Positions 2,381 to 28,688 of a stretch of 58,167 bases of DNA are shown piece by piece. Position numbers and translations under genes: made by a program. This DNA comes from an uncultured Butyrivibrio sp. Lineage in GTDB: Bacteria > Bacillota > Clostridia > Lachnospirales > Lachnospiraceae. Under the pieces are notes generated by a model. The model saw nothing but the letters and a program-made list of their open reading frames with translations, ran no database searches and was not told the origin of the DNA. The stretch covers positions 1 through 58,167 of the forward strand of contig CAMORK010000007.1 in assembly GCA_946623755.1 (NCBI GenBank), written 5' to 3'. Numbering within the stretch: the stretch's first letter is position 1; every line of letters begins with the position of its first letter.

Positions 2381-2701
2381 TTATTTCTTGAGAAGCTTAG
2401 AGAACTCCAAAGCCTTACCAACATCTCCGTCTACCTTCAGCTTACCGATCGTGAATGCTGCGACAGGATCAAGCTTGCCACTAATCAGCTTGTTGAAATC
2501 ATCGGATTTCATGGTAATCGCACAATTTCTGTCGTGATAGTCATAAGGCTCTACGTTTACTTTGTGGTCCTTGACCTCAACATAGAAGACTCCGGGATCA
2601 CAGTCTGTGAGGTTGATCTGAACCGCAAGGAAATCTACACCCGATACATCGGCGGTTTCAGCCATTTTCCTGACTTTGGATAATACAGTTTCGAATTTCA
2701 T
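2381..2701 (-). CDS. SCP2 sterol-binding-domain protein
   Basis: Small (106 residue) single-domain protein with the SCP2 pattern: an alternating strand region with a VNVEPYDYHDRNC segment, then a helix of the SDDFNKLISGKLDP type, and a glycine-containing turn before the KLKVDGD strand. SCP2 domains bind fatty acyl chains, sterol-like lipids or acyl-CoA in a hydrophobic tunnel. AGGAGG nine bases upstream of the ATG at 2701 fixes the start; an upstream in-frame codon would add 14 unlikely residues. It has its own extended -10 promoter and a terminator, so it is probably monocistronic. The repeat array lies immediately upstream of that promoter. Confidence 0.85.
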   Translation of the reverse strand: MKFETVLSKVRKMAETADVSGVDFLAVQINLTDCDPGVFYVEVKDHKVNVEPYDYHDRNCAITMKSDDFNKLISGKLDPVAAFTIGKLKVDGDVGKALEFSKLLKK

Positions 2702-2775
2702 TTGCACAATCCTCCTTTGTCTGCCAGTGTGATGCGCTCCCAACTGCGCTAATGCCCCAACTCATGATTATTTAT

Positions 2776-2784: not shown

Positions 2785-2810
2785 CTAAAACGTGCGTTGC
2801 TATTAAATCA

Positions 2811-3205
2811 TTCTCCATATACAGGCAAAACTGCCCTCTGGTGGTAGAAAAACTCGGTCCAAAAGCTTTGTTGCTCAAATTTTCTACATATACGCTAAAA
2901 AGTGTCCTGTGGGCGTAGAAAATATCTGGGCCTAAAATCTTTGTTCCTCATATTTTCTACCTATATTCTAAAAAGTGCCCTGTGGGCGTAGAATTTGCTA
3001 AATCTAACTTTTTCATTTTCTCTCTATATCATAAAAAGTGCCCCGTGGGCGTAGAAAATCAGGTAAACAAAAAACTAAGGTCTAAATTCTTTCTACATAT
3101 ATTCGCAAAAGTGCCCTCTGGGCGTAGAAAATCAGGCTGTCAAGATTTCGGACTCCTATATCTTTCTCTATATATGACAAAAAGTAACCTGTGGGCGTAG
3201 AAAAC
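2811..3205. repeat. Array of six ~42-bp degenerate repeats with palindromic ends
   Basis: Six direct repeats start near 2811, 2881, 2954, 3017, 3090 and 3163. The best copies (2, 3, 5) begin TTTCTAC and end GTAGAAA, forming an inverted repeat, and contain a second small palindrome GCCC-TGT-GGGC next to the right arm. The most conserved part is AAAAGTGCCCTGTGGGCGTAG. Start-to-start distances are 70, 73, 63, 73 and 73 bases; most differ by about one helical turn, so the copies would lie on the same face of DNA. Spacers (about 22-37 bases) are dissimilar. No cas genes are near. The array fills the gap between a GNAT gene and the SCP2 promoter. No coding potential is supported here. Function unknown. 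Confidence 0.85.
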
Positions 3206-3240: not shown

Positions 3241-3978
3241 TCAATTAGTGATCTTATCAGTCACAAGCTCAGCCCATGCAGGAATAAAGCCGGCTCCAAG
3301 CGCAACCTTTTGTGAAGCAATGTGCCCCATGGATGTTCCATAGTATGGAAGATGTCCACTTTGAAGAATATCATTCTTAAGAAGCGAAACCAGTATCTTA
3401 CCGATTCCCAGCCTTCTTCCAGCAGGCTCGACATTTATGCCAATCTGCCACATGAGTGGACTGTCAAGACTTGCTCCGGCCATTCCAAGAATGACTCCAT
3501 CCTTGATTGCTGCAACGCCGATAATATCAGGCGCTGTTTCGCAGAAGGTGAAAGCCTCACAGAATCTGTCATCTCCTTTGAACTGCTCTATCTCTTTTCC
3601 TCTATACCACTTAATATCGTAGCCTTTATTATCGACTTCAGAGACAGTCTCAGAAATATAGAATGGATGAGCCATACCAATCTGATATCCGTCCTGTGCA
3701 AAGCGCTCATTAAGCTTACGCATGTTCTTAACTTCTAGAAACCACTCCGAACCCGTATCGGAATAGTTCTCCCTGCACCACTCTACGATGTCTTTTCTCC
3801 CCGTGAAAAGAATCTTTCCATTAACTAAAACAAGCTTAAGATAGCAGTCCTCTTTTTCATGATATCTGCGCCTGCCATCAATAAAACTGTACTCAGTAAA
3901 ATGATTCCGCCCATCACACACTTCTTCCGGGCTACAGCAATAATCTATTGCAAGCTGTCTGCATAATATGTCATTCAT
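3241..3978 (-). CDS. GNAT family N-acetyltransferase with N-terminal extension
   Basis: 245 residues. The C-terminal half is a GNAT domain: the strand WQIGINVEP is followed by the acetyl-CoA pyrophosphate loop RRLGIG (188-193) and a helix, then a final strand after an Asn/Ser-rich turn. The first ~120 residues are less typical and probably hold a substrate-specific subdomain. It follows the PAP2/acyltransferase-fusion gene by about 20 bases and is likely the last gene of that operon. AGG lies about 11 bases before the ATG, a weak but usable ribosome site. Substrate unknown. The repeat array starts just after its stop codon. Confidence 0.75.
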   Translation of the reverse strand: MNDILCRQLAIDYCCSPEEVCDGRNHFTEYSFIDGRRRYHEKEDCYLKLVLVNGKILFTGRKDIVEWCRENYSDTGSEWFLEVKNMRKLNERFAQDGYQIGMAHPFYISETVSEVDNKGYDIKWYRGKEIEQFKGDDRFCEAFTFCETAPDIIGVAAIKDGVILGMAGASLDSPLMWQIGINVEPAGRRLGIGKILVSLLKNDILQSGHLPYYGTSMGHIASQKVALGAGFIPAWAELVTDKITN

Positions 3979-24792: not shown

Positions 24793-27291
24793 ATGTATCT
24801 TGAAGAACGTCACGAGATAATCGAGTTCCCACCTAATATTCCCCTGAAAATCTTCATGCATAAGCTGGGATCTGTAGATAATCACTGGCATAGAAGCATT
24901 GAGCTTTTAATGGTTTTAGACGGAACCATATCTATTTCCATCGATAATACAGAGTACTCACTGACCAGCGAAGATATCATTCTTATAAACAGCAACACAA
25001 TCCACTCTCTGCGTTCTGAGAGCGCCGTTATGATCGCCATACAGATAGATTTGTCCAGAATGAACCAGTTTGATGCAAATCTTGACGAGATGGTCTTTGA
25101 TTGTAATACAACTACAACGGATGATCCGTCCAAGTTTGACGGCATAAAGTTCGCTATTGCCACCATGCTCAACGAGAACGCCCACAATTCATACGAATCA
25201 CAGTACAGAAACTATTCTCTGGCTTATTATCTTGTTTCAGAGCTTCTGGCGAATTTCAGTGTTCCAATCACAAACGCAATAAAAACCCAGCAAAAATACG
25301 CTGCAAGACTCACAAGGCTGCTTAAATACATCGAAGACCATTACGCCGAGAACTTTTCCCTCAGTGATCTGGCTGCAGAGGAAGATCTGTCAGTTCCCTA
25401 TTTATCTAATTTTTTCGACAAGAACATGGGCGTTAAGTTTTCGCAGTATTACACAACAGTCAAGCTGAACCATGCCCTTTCCGACCTGCTCTCAACCAAT
25501 GATTCCATTGAAACTATTGCTGTCAGGAACGGTTTTACCGAGTCTCATTCCTTTGTGCGCAGCTTTAAAAAACAATACGGAACACTGCCAAGTACATACA
25601 GAAAGCAAAGGGGCCAGACTCCTGCGACCGCTGAAGCAAGCTCAACACTGAACTATCTGCAAATGGAGCCCAGCAACTATCTGCATCTTTTGACAAAGTA
25701 TCTTGGAGACATCAAAGATCAGCCCCACACCATCAACACCAGGAACATCGTAAAGTCCGAGGAAGTGGTTGCTTCAGTCAGCAGCGGTGTAAGGACCTTA
25801 AAACATAACTTTAAGAAATTTATTACTGTGGGCAGGGCAAAAGAGCTCTTAAACAGAGACATTCAGAACATGCTCATAGATCTTCAAAATAACATTGGTT
25901 ATGAATACATCAAGTTCCATGGCTTGCTTTCCGATGACATGATGGTTGTTTCAAGGATCAACGGAAAGCTTACTTTCCACTACACTCTTGTGGATATGGC
26001 GCTGGATTTCCTTATTTCCATCGGTCTAAAGCCGCTGATACAGCTCTCTTTTATGCCACGGGATCTGGCTGCCGACCCTAATAAGACCATCTTCTATTCA
26101 CCGATGATCACAAGTCCCCCCAAGCACATGTCGGAATGGGAACAGCTTATAGATAACTTCACCAGACACCTTATTGAACGCTACGGCACAAATACTGTCA
26201 GATCATGGCTCTTCTGTGCATGGAATGAACCGGTAACGCCTAAATCCATGTTCGGTTTTGGCGACGATCCTCTGTTTTTTAAGTTTTATGAAACTTCTTA
26301 CCGAGCCGTAAAAAGAGTTGATGACAAGCTTGTATTCGGCTCTCCATCGATCCTGTATATGGAGAATCTCGGAACAGACAAATGGATCAAGGATTTCCTT
26401 ACATATGCCAAAAAGAATAACTGCGAGCCGGAATTCCTCAACGTACATTATTATTCTGACATTATTCCAATGACAGCCAAGCAAAACATAACTATAGGAA
26501 GCGTGTCTTTTTCATTCCCACGCAGAACCGACGATTTTTCGCTGTGGATCGGAAGTATCAAAAAGATCTTTTCATCAGCCGGATTCGGTTCACTTCCTAT
26601 ATACATGACTGAGTGGAACTTCACTCTCTCCCACAGGAATCTTGCCAGCGACACATGTTTTAAATCCTGCTATATACTAAAGAACCTGCTCAGAAACTAC
26701 GACAGACTGGACAGCTTCGGGTACTGGTCTCTTACGGATCTTCTTGAAGAAAACGCTCTGCCGGACACTCTTTTCCACGGAGGTCTTGGTATTTACACAA
26801 CAAACGGTATCCGAAAGAGTGTTTATTACAGCTTCTATTTTGCAAGTCTGTTGGGGGATGAGCTCATAGCCTCAGGTGAAGGTTACTTCATTACGAAGAG
26901 TATTGATGCATATCAGATCATCACCTACAACTATGTACACTACGGTAATCTGTTTGCTTCAGGTGAGCTCTTTGATATGACAGAAACCAACAGATACACT
27001 CCGTTTGACATGACAAACCGCCTCCAGTTCCAGATCAAGCTCACAGATCTGGATAACGGCAACTACTGCATTAAGGAGCTGTTTGTTAACAGGGAATATG
27101 GCAGTGCCTACGATATCTGGCTCAAGATGGGCGCTGTGCCCCTTGATCCAAGCGATGTTGAGATCATAAAGGGCTACTGCGTTCCCGGAATGCACAAGGA
27201 ATACAGACTGATTGAAAGCGGAGTATATGAATATTCTCCGGTTCTGGATCCTCTAGAAATCCGATTTGCTGAAATTAAAAGAATTAAGTAA
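24793..27291 (+). CDS. AraC-type regulator fused to a GH39 glycosidase domain
   Basis: 832 residues in three parts. Residues ~15-90 form a cupin sensor with the HWHRSIEL metal/sugar-pocket block. Residues ~170-272 are an AraC HTH pair, with SLSDLAAEEDLSVPYLSNFF and the second helix-turn-helix ending ESHSFVRSFKK. Residues ~290-832 are a GH39 (beta-xylosidase-like) barrel with acid/base Glu479 in WNEP and nucleophile Glu607 in MTEWN, both present, so the enzyme domain may be active or may serve as a second sugar sensor. GAGG lies seven bases before the ATG. Divergent from the ABC operon, which it probably activates. A strong bidirectional terminator follows. Confidence 0.9.
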   Translation: MYLEERHEIIEFPPNIPLKIFMHKLGSVDNHWHRSIELLMVLDGTISISIDNTEYSLTSEDIILINSNTIHSLRSESAVMIAIQIDLSRMNQFDANLDEMVFDCNTTTTDDPSKFDGIKFAIATMLNENAHNSYESQYRNYSLAYYLVSELLANFSVPITNAIKTQQKYAARLTRLLKYIEDHYAENFSLSDLAAEEDLSVPYLSNFFDKNMGVKFSQYYTTVKLNHALSDLLSTNDSIETIAVRNGFTESHSFVRSFKKQYGTLPSTYRKQRGQTPATAEASSTLNYLQMEPSNYLHLLTKYLGDIKDQPHTINTRNIVKSEEVVASVSSGVRTLKHNFKKFITVGRAKELLNRDIQNMLIDLQNNIGYEYIKFHGLLSDDMMVVSRINGKLTFHYTLVDMALDFLISIGLKPLIQLSFMPRDLAADPNKTIFYSPMITSPPKHMSEWEQLIDNFTRHLIERYGTNTVRSWLFCAWNEPVTPKSMFGFGDDPLFFKFYETSYRAVKRVDDKLVFGSPSILYMENLGTDKWIKDFLTYAKKNNCEPEFLNVHYYSDIIPMTAKQNITIGSVSFSFPRRTDDFSLWIGSIKKIFSSAGFGSLPIYMTEWNFTLSHRNLASDTCFKSCYILKNLLRNYDRLDSFGYWSLTDLLEENALPDTLFHGGLGIYTTNGIRKSVYYSFYFASLLGDELIASGEGYFITKSIDAYQIITYNYVHYGNLFASGELFDMTETNRYTPFDMTNRLQFQIKLTDLDNGNYCIKELFVNREYGSAYDIWLKMGAVPLDPSDVEIIKGYCVPGMHKEYRLIESGVYEYSPVLDPLEIRFAEIKRIK

Positions 27292-27294
27292 AAT

Positions 27295-27330
27295 AATCCC
27301 CTGTTCACAGCTGAACAGGGGATTTTAATT
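27295..27330. terminator. Bidirectional terminator between GH39-regulator and GH1 genes
   Basis: Perfect 13-base-pair stem AATCCCCTGTTCA / TGAACAGGGGATT with loop CAGC (27295-27324). T-tracts follow on both strands (TTTAATTTATTT on plus, ATTTTACTT on minus), serving both converging genes. Confidence 0.92.
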
Positions 27331-28688
27331 TATTTGTGGAGGCTTGCGCCATTTGAAGCGATCACTTCTTTATACCAATATGCAGAATCCTTAAGAGTTC
27401 TCTCAAGAGTCTCATAATCTACATAAATGAGGCCAAATCTCATTTTATAACCGTGACACCACTCAAAGTTATCCATGATCGACCAGTGCTGGTATCCGAT
27501 AACTTCAATTCCGTCATTGATGGCTCTTTCAAGTTCCAAAAGATACCTGTTGGTGAAATCGATTCTCTGATAGTCATGCACCTTGCCGTCAAGCGCCTTC
27601 CAGTCCATTCCTGCCATACCATTTTCTGTGATCATGATCGGCTTGTGGTATCTCTCGTAGAAAAACTTAGGTGCATAATACAGTACTCTTGGTGTTACAC
27701 TCCAGCCCATCATGGTGTGAGCGCTTCCCTGATATTCGTATGGGCCGTATTTAGCCGGATCCTGCGGGTAATTCACTGTTCCCTCATATACGTTAAAGCC
27801 ATAGAAATCCAGTGGTTGAGCTATCTCATCCCACTCTTTATGTGAGAGCTTTGGAAGCATATCTCCGAATGCTTCCTCAGAGCCCTCTGCGTAATGTCCG
27901 AGGAAGATCGGATCTGCCCACCACGCATTTCCCATGAGGAAACCATACGGATCTATGGCAAAAGACATTTTTCTGCACTTTTCCACTTCCTCGGGAGTAT
28001 CATCCTTTGGAACCCACACATTTCCTGTGGGAGCCATGCCAATCTTTGCCTCAAGCCTGCTGTGTTTCCTGATGGCTGAAACTGCCTTTCCATGAGACTT
28101 AAATACATTTACGGAAATGTTCAGCATAGTCTGAATATCATTTGTCTCAAAAGGCGCCATTACTCCGATCTGATGACCAAGTCCGACAAACATCTGATAC
28201 TCATTGAAAGTCATCCAGTATTTAACCCTGTCTCCAAGGCGTTTAACCACTACTTCTACATACTCTCCAAACCATTCAGCTATTTCAGGGTTCTTCCAAC
28301 CGCCCTTCTCATAAATAGCCATGGGAAGATTCCAATGGAAAAGAGTTACCATCGGCTCGATTCCGGAACTGATGAGCTCGTCTACCAGATCCGAATAGAA
28401 TTGCATTCCCTTTTCGTTCACCTTTCCGGTTCCCTCAGGCATAACCCTTGGCCAGCTGATTGAGAATCTGTAGCTCTTTAAGCCTATCTGCTTCATAAGA
28501 GCAACGTCTTCTTTCATGTGATGATAGTGATCGCAGGAAATATCAGCATTCTCGCCAAGCTCAATTCGTCCCTCTTCATGGCCGAAATGATCCCAGATCC
28601 CGAGACCCTTTCCGTCATCCAGATATGCTCCTTCAATCTGGTGTGCTGCAGACGCAGCTCCCCATAAGAAATCTTTTGAAAAACTCAT
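27330..28688 (-). CDS. Beta-glucosidase/6-phospho-beta-glucosidase family, GH1
   Basis: 452 residues, the standard GH1 length, cytoplasmic. The N-terminal signature FLWGAASAAHQIEGA, the acid/base Glu163 in TFNEY (usually TFNEP; Pro is replaced by Tyr), and the nucleophile Glu355 in ITENG are present. The absence of the phospho-sugar loop motif favours a plain beta-glucosidase/beta-galactosidase. AGAGGTGA precedes the ATG. It follows the GH2 gene by 12 bases as the second cistron of a two-gene operon, so the two probably finish oligosaccharide breakdown together. Confidence 0.95.
   Translation of the reverse strand: MSFSKDFLWGAASAAHQIEGAYLDDGKGLGIWDHFGHEEGRIELGENADISCDHYHHMKEDVALMKQIGLKSYRFSISWPRVMPEGTGKVNEKGMQFYSDLVDELISSGIEPMVTLFHWNLPMAIYEKGGWKNPEIAEWFGEYVEVVVKRLGDRVKYWMTFNEYQMFVGLGHQIGVMAPFETNDIQTMLNISVNVFKSHGKAVSAIRKHSRLEAKIGMAPTGNVWVPKDDTPEEVEKCRKMSFAIDPYGFLMGNAWWADPIFLGHYAEGSEEAFGDMLPKLSHKEWDEIAQPLDFYGFNVYEGTVNYPQDPAKYGPYEYQGSAHTMMGWSVTPRVLYYAPKFFYERYHKPIMITENGMAGMDWKALDGKVHDYQRIDFTNRYLLELERAINDGIEVIGYQHWSIMDNFEWCHGYKMRFGLIYVDYETLERTLKDSAYWYKEVIASNGASLHK

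Follow-up and report, generated by a model that had tools for sequence, protein, structure and literature searches.

The array at positions 2809-3204 of a 58,167-nt stretch from an uncultured Butyrivibrio sp. (contig CAMORK010000007.1; hereafter the window) is a solo, dispersed member of a family of helically phased repeat arrays, and elsewhere this family flanks a gene for a predicted two-domain nuclease. Linkage between arrays and homologues of this gene is general in the Lachnospiraceae, and the phasing extends beyond the window's family, across arrays of unrelated sequence. We consider it probable that these elements form an undescribed system that pairs a nuclease with cognate phased arrays and works like the repetitive extragenic palindrome (REP)-RAYT systems with an unrelated enzyme, in which the nuclease would bind the arrays, cut DNA and drive the mobility of the repeats.

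Anatomy and spacing of the arrays

The window array consists of six 43-bp copies in register, all on the plus strand, with start-to-start spacings of 71, 73, 63, 73 and 73 bp. A preliminary description of this DNA had recognised the six-copy repeat correctly and had given the first spacing as 70 bp, which we correct to 71. The 21-base core had 5 matches in the 58 kb (≤3 mismatches) versus 0 in 100 shuffles, and a position weight matrix (PWM) scan of the whole 58,167-nt stretch found only the six array copies. Copy 1 (2809-2851) is a degenerate left-end copy with a PWM score of 44, the other window copies scoring 58-64. Copy 2 (2880-2922) carries the arms TTTTCTAC and GTAGAAAA, copy 3 (2953-2995) terminates in GTAGAATT, as do several second copies of four-copy arrays (4-mers), and copy 4 (3016-3058) lies 63 bp past copy 3. 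Here and below, genomes are labelled G (the source genome of the window being G000) and loci L. By eye, copy 5 (3089-3131) has a counterpart in G003 (L071) and none in G067 (L113), copy 6 (3162-3204) has one in G067 (L113) and none in G003 (L071), and the window array differs from these two orthologues by whole units. The inverted TTTCTAC/GTAGAAA-type ends of the preliminary description are real and correspond to the TTTTCTAC/GTAGAAAA arms. Its inner GCCC-TGT-GGGC palindrome did not hold up as a structure: the pairs hold in only 69.1% of cells over 85 copies, the left arm drifts and TGGGCGTAGAAAA is well conserved.

Spacing was counted for the family on 176 copies from 42 locus strands, taking adjacent distances of ≤130 bp and dropping the contig-end loci L125 and L126. 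The 132 adjacent spacings were 53 (10 cases), 56 (1), 58 (5), 59 (1), 63 (22), 71 (1), 72 (8), 73 (81) and 74 bp (3), so that 125 of the 132 were 53, 63 or 71-74 bp. Typical arrays are 4-mers spaced 73-63-73 or 73-53-73, some of them linked to a second 4-mer via ~58 bp, a distance that puts the two out of phase by half a turn. The 10-bp steps are not codon steps. Random spacing at homologous loci had been named beforehand as the outcome that would speak against a helical array; the spacings instead stay quantised (53, 56-59, 63 and 71-74 bp). Seven pairs of orthologous arrays were compared, three of them at one and the same locus; the motif was 93.3% identical (1402/1503) and the spacer 84.1% (604/718). 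At L074-L077 and L120 we also saw second copy sets whose motif has diverged (..GGGTATGGAAAA) and which join on at 58-59 bp, half a helical turn off.

Dispersal of the array family

The source assembly is 60% complete and comprises 106 contigs. A core pattern search of it returned 29 copies on 11 contigs, many of them 73 or 63 bp apart; besides the window array, nine loci had two or more copies and three had single copies. A sequence-only model built from 85 copies found 46 copies in this genome, 70, 42, 12 and 9 in four of the 78 other genus genomes, and one weak match each in three more (8/79 in total). A second model returned the same five genomes and five single weak matches (10/79 genus genomes). 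Among 397 family genomes, matches besides those in the source genome occurred in only three, each single and marginal.

At the window locus and 18 others, the arrays lie between larger open reading frames (ORFs), are overlapped only by ORFs of ≤170 codons and adjoin unrelated genes; the settings include sense and antisense as well as convergent and divergent ones. The special link with a lipid-binding (SCP2) gene or its promoter that had been suggested for the window is not borne out. Because family arrays have unrelated neighbours, the lipid-binding gene next to the window array is incidental.

The predicted nuclease gene and its product

In four genomes, the window's array family flanks a gene with a 263-residue product. 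The source-genome copy lies on contig 12 of G000 (26834-27622), between an array of the family and a lone degenerate copy, and in G067 and G082 the arrays are inverted around the gene. The protein is predicted to combine a coiled-coil/beta N-terminal domain with a Vsr/I-Bth0305I-like nuclease C-terminal domain. In the structure model, the C-terminal domain appears to be of the PD-(D/E)XK type, with the homing endonuclease I-Bth0305I as its nearest fold, and the N-terminal part comprises a coiled coil and a three-stranded sheet. Residues E161, D191, E206 and H207 are invariant in 71/71 aligned homologues and make up a candidate active-site set with a putative catalytic role.

The protein family had no credible match in Pfam (none in two seeds), NCBIfam or PHROGs, a PDB sequence search gave none, and no transposase family was among the family matches of the 71 members. 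To our knowledge, the protein family has no known role. The preliminary description knew of no family matching the array, and none came to light within the searches made; in the open-licence PMC literature we found no paper on this protein or array family, although one may be in print elsewhere. The N-terminal half also gave fold matches to Rad50, prefoldin and V-ATPase, which we take to reflect common coiled coils. Two of 120 listed homologues (P0011 and P0108) carry PF20586 as a precomputed label; our own scan of both to E 10 did not return PF20586, and the label was not used. One further listed homologue (P0048, 1/120) carries a set of precomputed acetyltransferase labels. The C-terminal domain matches the C-terminal end of PADLOC PDC-S68 profiles (best 1.1e-22), which are ~1,200 residues long, and some proteins with an AAA family ATPase annotation likewise match at their C-terminal end. 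Carriage by phages or plasmids was considered and rejected: no match covered 80% of the protein, and three phage and three plasmid records gave C-terminal matches only. Nine viral contigs match, one from residue 103 and the others from residues 139-144.

Linkage of nuclease homologues and arrays

Homologues were present in 68/79 genus genomes, often several per genome, and in 100/299 family genomes (298 genera sampled). Two sets of loci were analysed: set 1 comprised 64 loci (four seeds and 60 others) and set 2 comprised 88 loci from other genera. The 60 of set 1 and 60 of set 2 were picked by hand, working down the hit tables with the flanks still unseen; some rows were skipped, in many cases to keep clear of contig ends or of a genome already represented. 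The remaining 28 set-2 loci were returned by the family search, 2 of its 30 (the source genome and G030) being dropped as they were in set 1. The flanks of 24 loci had been inspected before the tandem-repeat and lag tests were fixed, and set 2 was run with the set-1 lag-test thresholds, its genes being located with 71 queries instead of one.

Tandem repeats with a lag of ≤250 bp lay within 700 bp of the gene at 36/64 loci (32/60 without the seeds). Among controls, from which genes near arrays or homologues were excluded, they lay at 6/195 genes, and at 4/30 of those with ≥400 bp of intergenic DNA. The stricter lag test placed an array at 30/64 set-1 loci and at 57/88 set-2 loci, and in set 2 arrays were found on 64/170 inner sides versus 19/160 sides further out. 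They lay upstream of the nuclease gene in 68/99 array sides, at a median gene-array distance of 133 bp, a position that would allow autoregulation of the gene. Arrays were alike only between close nucleases: likeness was seen in 14/42 locus pairs at ≥60% nuclease identity, in 1/114 at 50-60% (this pair at 57%) and in 0/3540 below 50%. G003 and G067 each hold a second paralogue with a different 73-74-bp array family, also dispersed, and G030 has a 53-bp family with three further matches besides the gene locus.

The helical phasing proposed for the window array holds across its own family and across many arrays of unrelated sequence. The base periods of the 22 set-1 families with lags of 45-95 fall at 51-54, 62-66, 72-75 and 84-85 bp, giving R=0.82 at 10.5 bp, a best period of 10.6 and a scan-corrected p at the simulation limit of 2e-4. 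This lag range was chosen after lags of 30-130 had been seen, with 14/62 picked sides having a top lag <45 and 4/62 one >95. In set 2, 54 families with lags of 45-95 gave R=0.67 and a best period of 10.3; with lags of 30-130, 56 families gave R=0.72 and p 1.8e-13. Pooling the sets, 53/76 families were within 1.5 bp of whole turns versus 22 expected, the outlier periods including 45, 49, 56, 59, 66 and 80. The p-values assume independent families, an assumption that the common ancestry of the nucleases makes only partly valid. Inverted arms of ≥8 were found in the consensus units of 7/35 and 22/64 arrays, versus 0.6% and 0.2% of shuffled consensuses.

Presence, absence and mobility

In the source genome, a solo array at L062 and an adjoining GTCCCC-type REP fill ~320 bp between two genes. 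Between the same two genes, just 22, 0 and 9 bases stay unaligned in G067, G003 and G071, and 56-85 bases lie between them in G076, G009 and G021, too little for the array. Because the corresponding genes in other genomes have so little space between them, the L062 array is, by parsimony, probably an insertion of ~300 bp, whose exact ends are loose. At the metK locus, 2,034 bp holding the nuclease gene and its arrays are present in G003 and absent in G031, with the flanks contiguous. In G003, G082, G067 and G000, though not in G009, the left boundary of homology to the unoccupied G031 site falls on one and the same base. The metK-locus nuclease gene is kept in several species, and G031 may have lost it because G003, G082, G067, G000 and G009 all have the gene there. 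At these two places, the metK locus and L062, inspection by eye revealed neither a target duplication nor terminal inverted repeats. The presence and absence of arrays between close genomes suggests that they are mobile, and the nuclease may be what moves them.

In G021 and G005 (L223, L224, L301 and L302), homologues with inverted 160-178-bp repeats are situated on the other side of metK, and the nuclease family may have settled beside metK twice. Upstream of metK (L060, L116, L122, L123 and L295-L305), a sequence resembling an S-adenosylmethionine (SAM) riboswitch was noted by eye.

Flanks of the window array and other arrays

The array lies upstream of an SCP2-like gene (2381-2701, minus strand; the name is that of the preliminary description and unconfirmed), the ATG of which is at 2701, within a longer TTG-started ORF at 2381-2743. 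On the other side, an acetyltransferase-like gene, named by eye (3241-3978, minus strand), has its stop 36 bp from the array and a homologue 93% identical in G031. G031 has a different gene order and could not serve as the empty-site counterpart of the window array. Window 2677-2758 on the minus strand has a sub-threshold tRNA match (Rfam E 0.35, under the gathering score), and ARAGORN found no tRNA in the window. Because the orthologous place in G003 (L071:6562-6636) is a tRNA-Ala(ggc), this seems to be a tRNA remnant beside the SCP2-like gene.

Two modules are common to several array upstream flanks (L061, L062, L063 and L066; also L073, L110 and L124-L127), one ending in GTTAGGCATCAA and the other with an ATCACAA...TTGTGAT-type hairpin; several G003 contigs start or stop near them. 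A separate dispersed repeat (TGAGTCA..ACGTCCCC..), with dozens of matches in G003 and G067, lies near arrays in the downstream flanks of L062, L063, L073, L074, L110, L124 and L127.

Comparison with known systems

The relevant passages of an earlier account (PMC2817692) describe RAYT genes as always flanked by two inverted REPs and related to IS200/IS605 transposases, REPs being GC-rich palindromes with a GT(A/G)G head. The present system is similar in that a chromosomal gene for a predicted DNA-cleaving enzyme has palindromic repeats of its own on its flanks, in many cases inverted, in that these repeats are also dispersed between genes, and in that several gene-repeat pairs with different sequence exist. 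It differs in its enzyme, which is predicted to be PD-(D/E)XK/Vsr-like and not IS200/IS605-like (Transposase_17), and in its repeats, which are tandem, are set at whole helical turns and carry inverted arms that lie far apart. Arms of ≥8 lie 19-49 bp apart (65 in one case) and differ between families, and are not compact GC-rich GT(A/G)G palindromes; in the window's family, GTAG occurs within the arm. Because enzyme and repeat architecture differ, the system, on this comparison, is not a REP-RAYT member, though apparently working alike.

The predicted C-terminal fold resembles that of I-Bth0305I and the EDxHD proteins, a class of homing endonucleases, from which the present proteins differ in their N-terminal domain, tandem arrays and dispersed copies. 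Unlike the Vsr mismatch endonuclease, they have an extra N-terminal domain and linked arrays, and they resemble the PDC-S68 candidate defence proteins in a C-terminal nuclease segment, although the latter are large proteins. BOX and BIME elements are modular intergenic repeats with a variable number of units; the arrays differ from them in spacing that steps by about one helical turn and in an adjoining nuclease gene. Presence and absence at otherwise matching sites is a property shared with classical transposons and miniature inverted-repeat transposable elements (MITEs).

Discussion

In the mechanism that we propose, the N-terminal coiled coil and three-stranded sheet would bind the inverted arms of each copy. 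Because the copies are 5, 6, 7 or 8 whole helical turns apart, protomers would align on one DNA face, and the assembled complex would bring the Vsr/EDxHD-like nuclease domain at the C terminus into place for a nick or cut. Repair or copying of the break would then spread array units, and rarely the gene with its arrays, into intergenic DNA. Arrays upstream of a gene may also regulate it. The sequences show the array anatomy, the quantised spacing, the gene-array linkage, the likeness of arrays only between close nucleases, the presence or absence of a solo array and of a segment with gene and arrays between close genomes, and the invariant candidate residues; that the nuclease binds the arrays, cuts and moves them is inferred. 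The wider lag range lowers our confidence slightly. With lags of 30-130, the 30 set-1 families gave R=0.49 and p 8e-4, a value weakened by 33-44-bp repeats, and such repeats stand instead of or besides phased arrays near some set-1 homologues (for example L226, L259, L263, L270 and L285). These unphased repeats, and the whole 73-bp units by which orthologues differ, would suit a neutral origin of the arrays by tandem-repeat slippage close to mobile genes, without any binding role. Slippage alone, however, predicts neither a 10.5-bp quantisation across unrelated sequences nor inverted arms or a motif conserved above its spacer, and we regard it as highly improbable.

A domesticated architectural or regulatory system, in which a DNA-binding organiser or autoregulator sits on phased arrays and nuclease activity is incidental, would account for the helical phasing, the motif identity above that of the spacer between orthologues, the upstream position of arrays (68/99 sides, median distance 133 bp) and the retention of the metK-locus gene in several species. 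It is unlikely, given that E161, D191, E206 and H207 are invariant in 71/71 homologues, that solo arrays stand beside unrelated genes in several orientations and that arrays are present or absent between close genomes. The match to PDC-S68 profiles (best 1.1e-22) would fit a role in defence or self-recognition, with the nuclease attacking incoming DNA and the arrays serving as decoys or self-marks that restrain it; but these ~1,200-residue profiles match only near their C-terminal end and the arrays are numerous and dispersed, which makes such a role quite unlikely. Were the gene a free-standing homing endonuclease, spreading by cutting empty sites and leaving arrays as repair by-products, the predicted closest fold of the C-terminal domain and the clean absence from G031 of a segment that G003 has would be expected. 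Gene-free arrays at many unrelated sites, and quantised arrays that a single homing site leaves unexplained, render this very unlikely. A CRISPR array or structured RNA, to which the stem-like arms and RNA folding z of -2.65 and -2.78 on the two strands might point, has a negligible probability. The 12-pair structure over 85 copies was 82.5% paired versus a shuffled mean of 81.9%, its covariation score was reached by 46/500 shuffles, and Rfam gave no match for the array. We reject the RNA reading because the pairs do not covary clearly beyond shuffles and both strands fold alike. CRISPR is rejected on repeat and spacer behaviour, as copies vary and spacers are common to orthologous arrays. The earlier preference for a putative protein-binding array over CRISPR or RNA is upheld.

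Returning to the nuclease with cognate phased arrays, a broader proposal can be made tentatively. The Lachnospiraceae could harbour undescribed selfish or domesticated systems in which a two-domain nuclease assembles as a one-sided filament on phased arrays with inverted arms and copies them into intergenic DNA, each lineage having its own motif and the spacing of 5 to 8 whole turns being set by the assembly rather than by the sequence. The arrays beside nuclease genes are a candidate DNA target for a family found in about one third of the sampled Lachnospiraceae genomes (100/299), and through their quantised spacing the geometry of a DNA-protein assembly may be legible from comparative genomics alone. 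Arrays that the nuclease does not spread would be candidate nucleoid or regulatory sites; if it does spread them, a second kind of enzyme would have solved the REP-RAYT problem, and the system would supply major gut and rumen bacteria with intergenic repeats.
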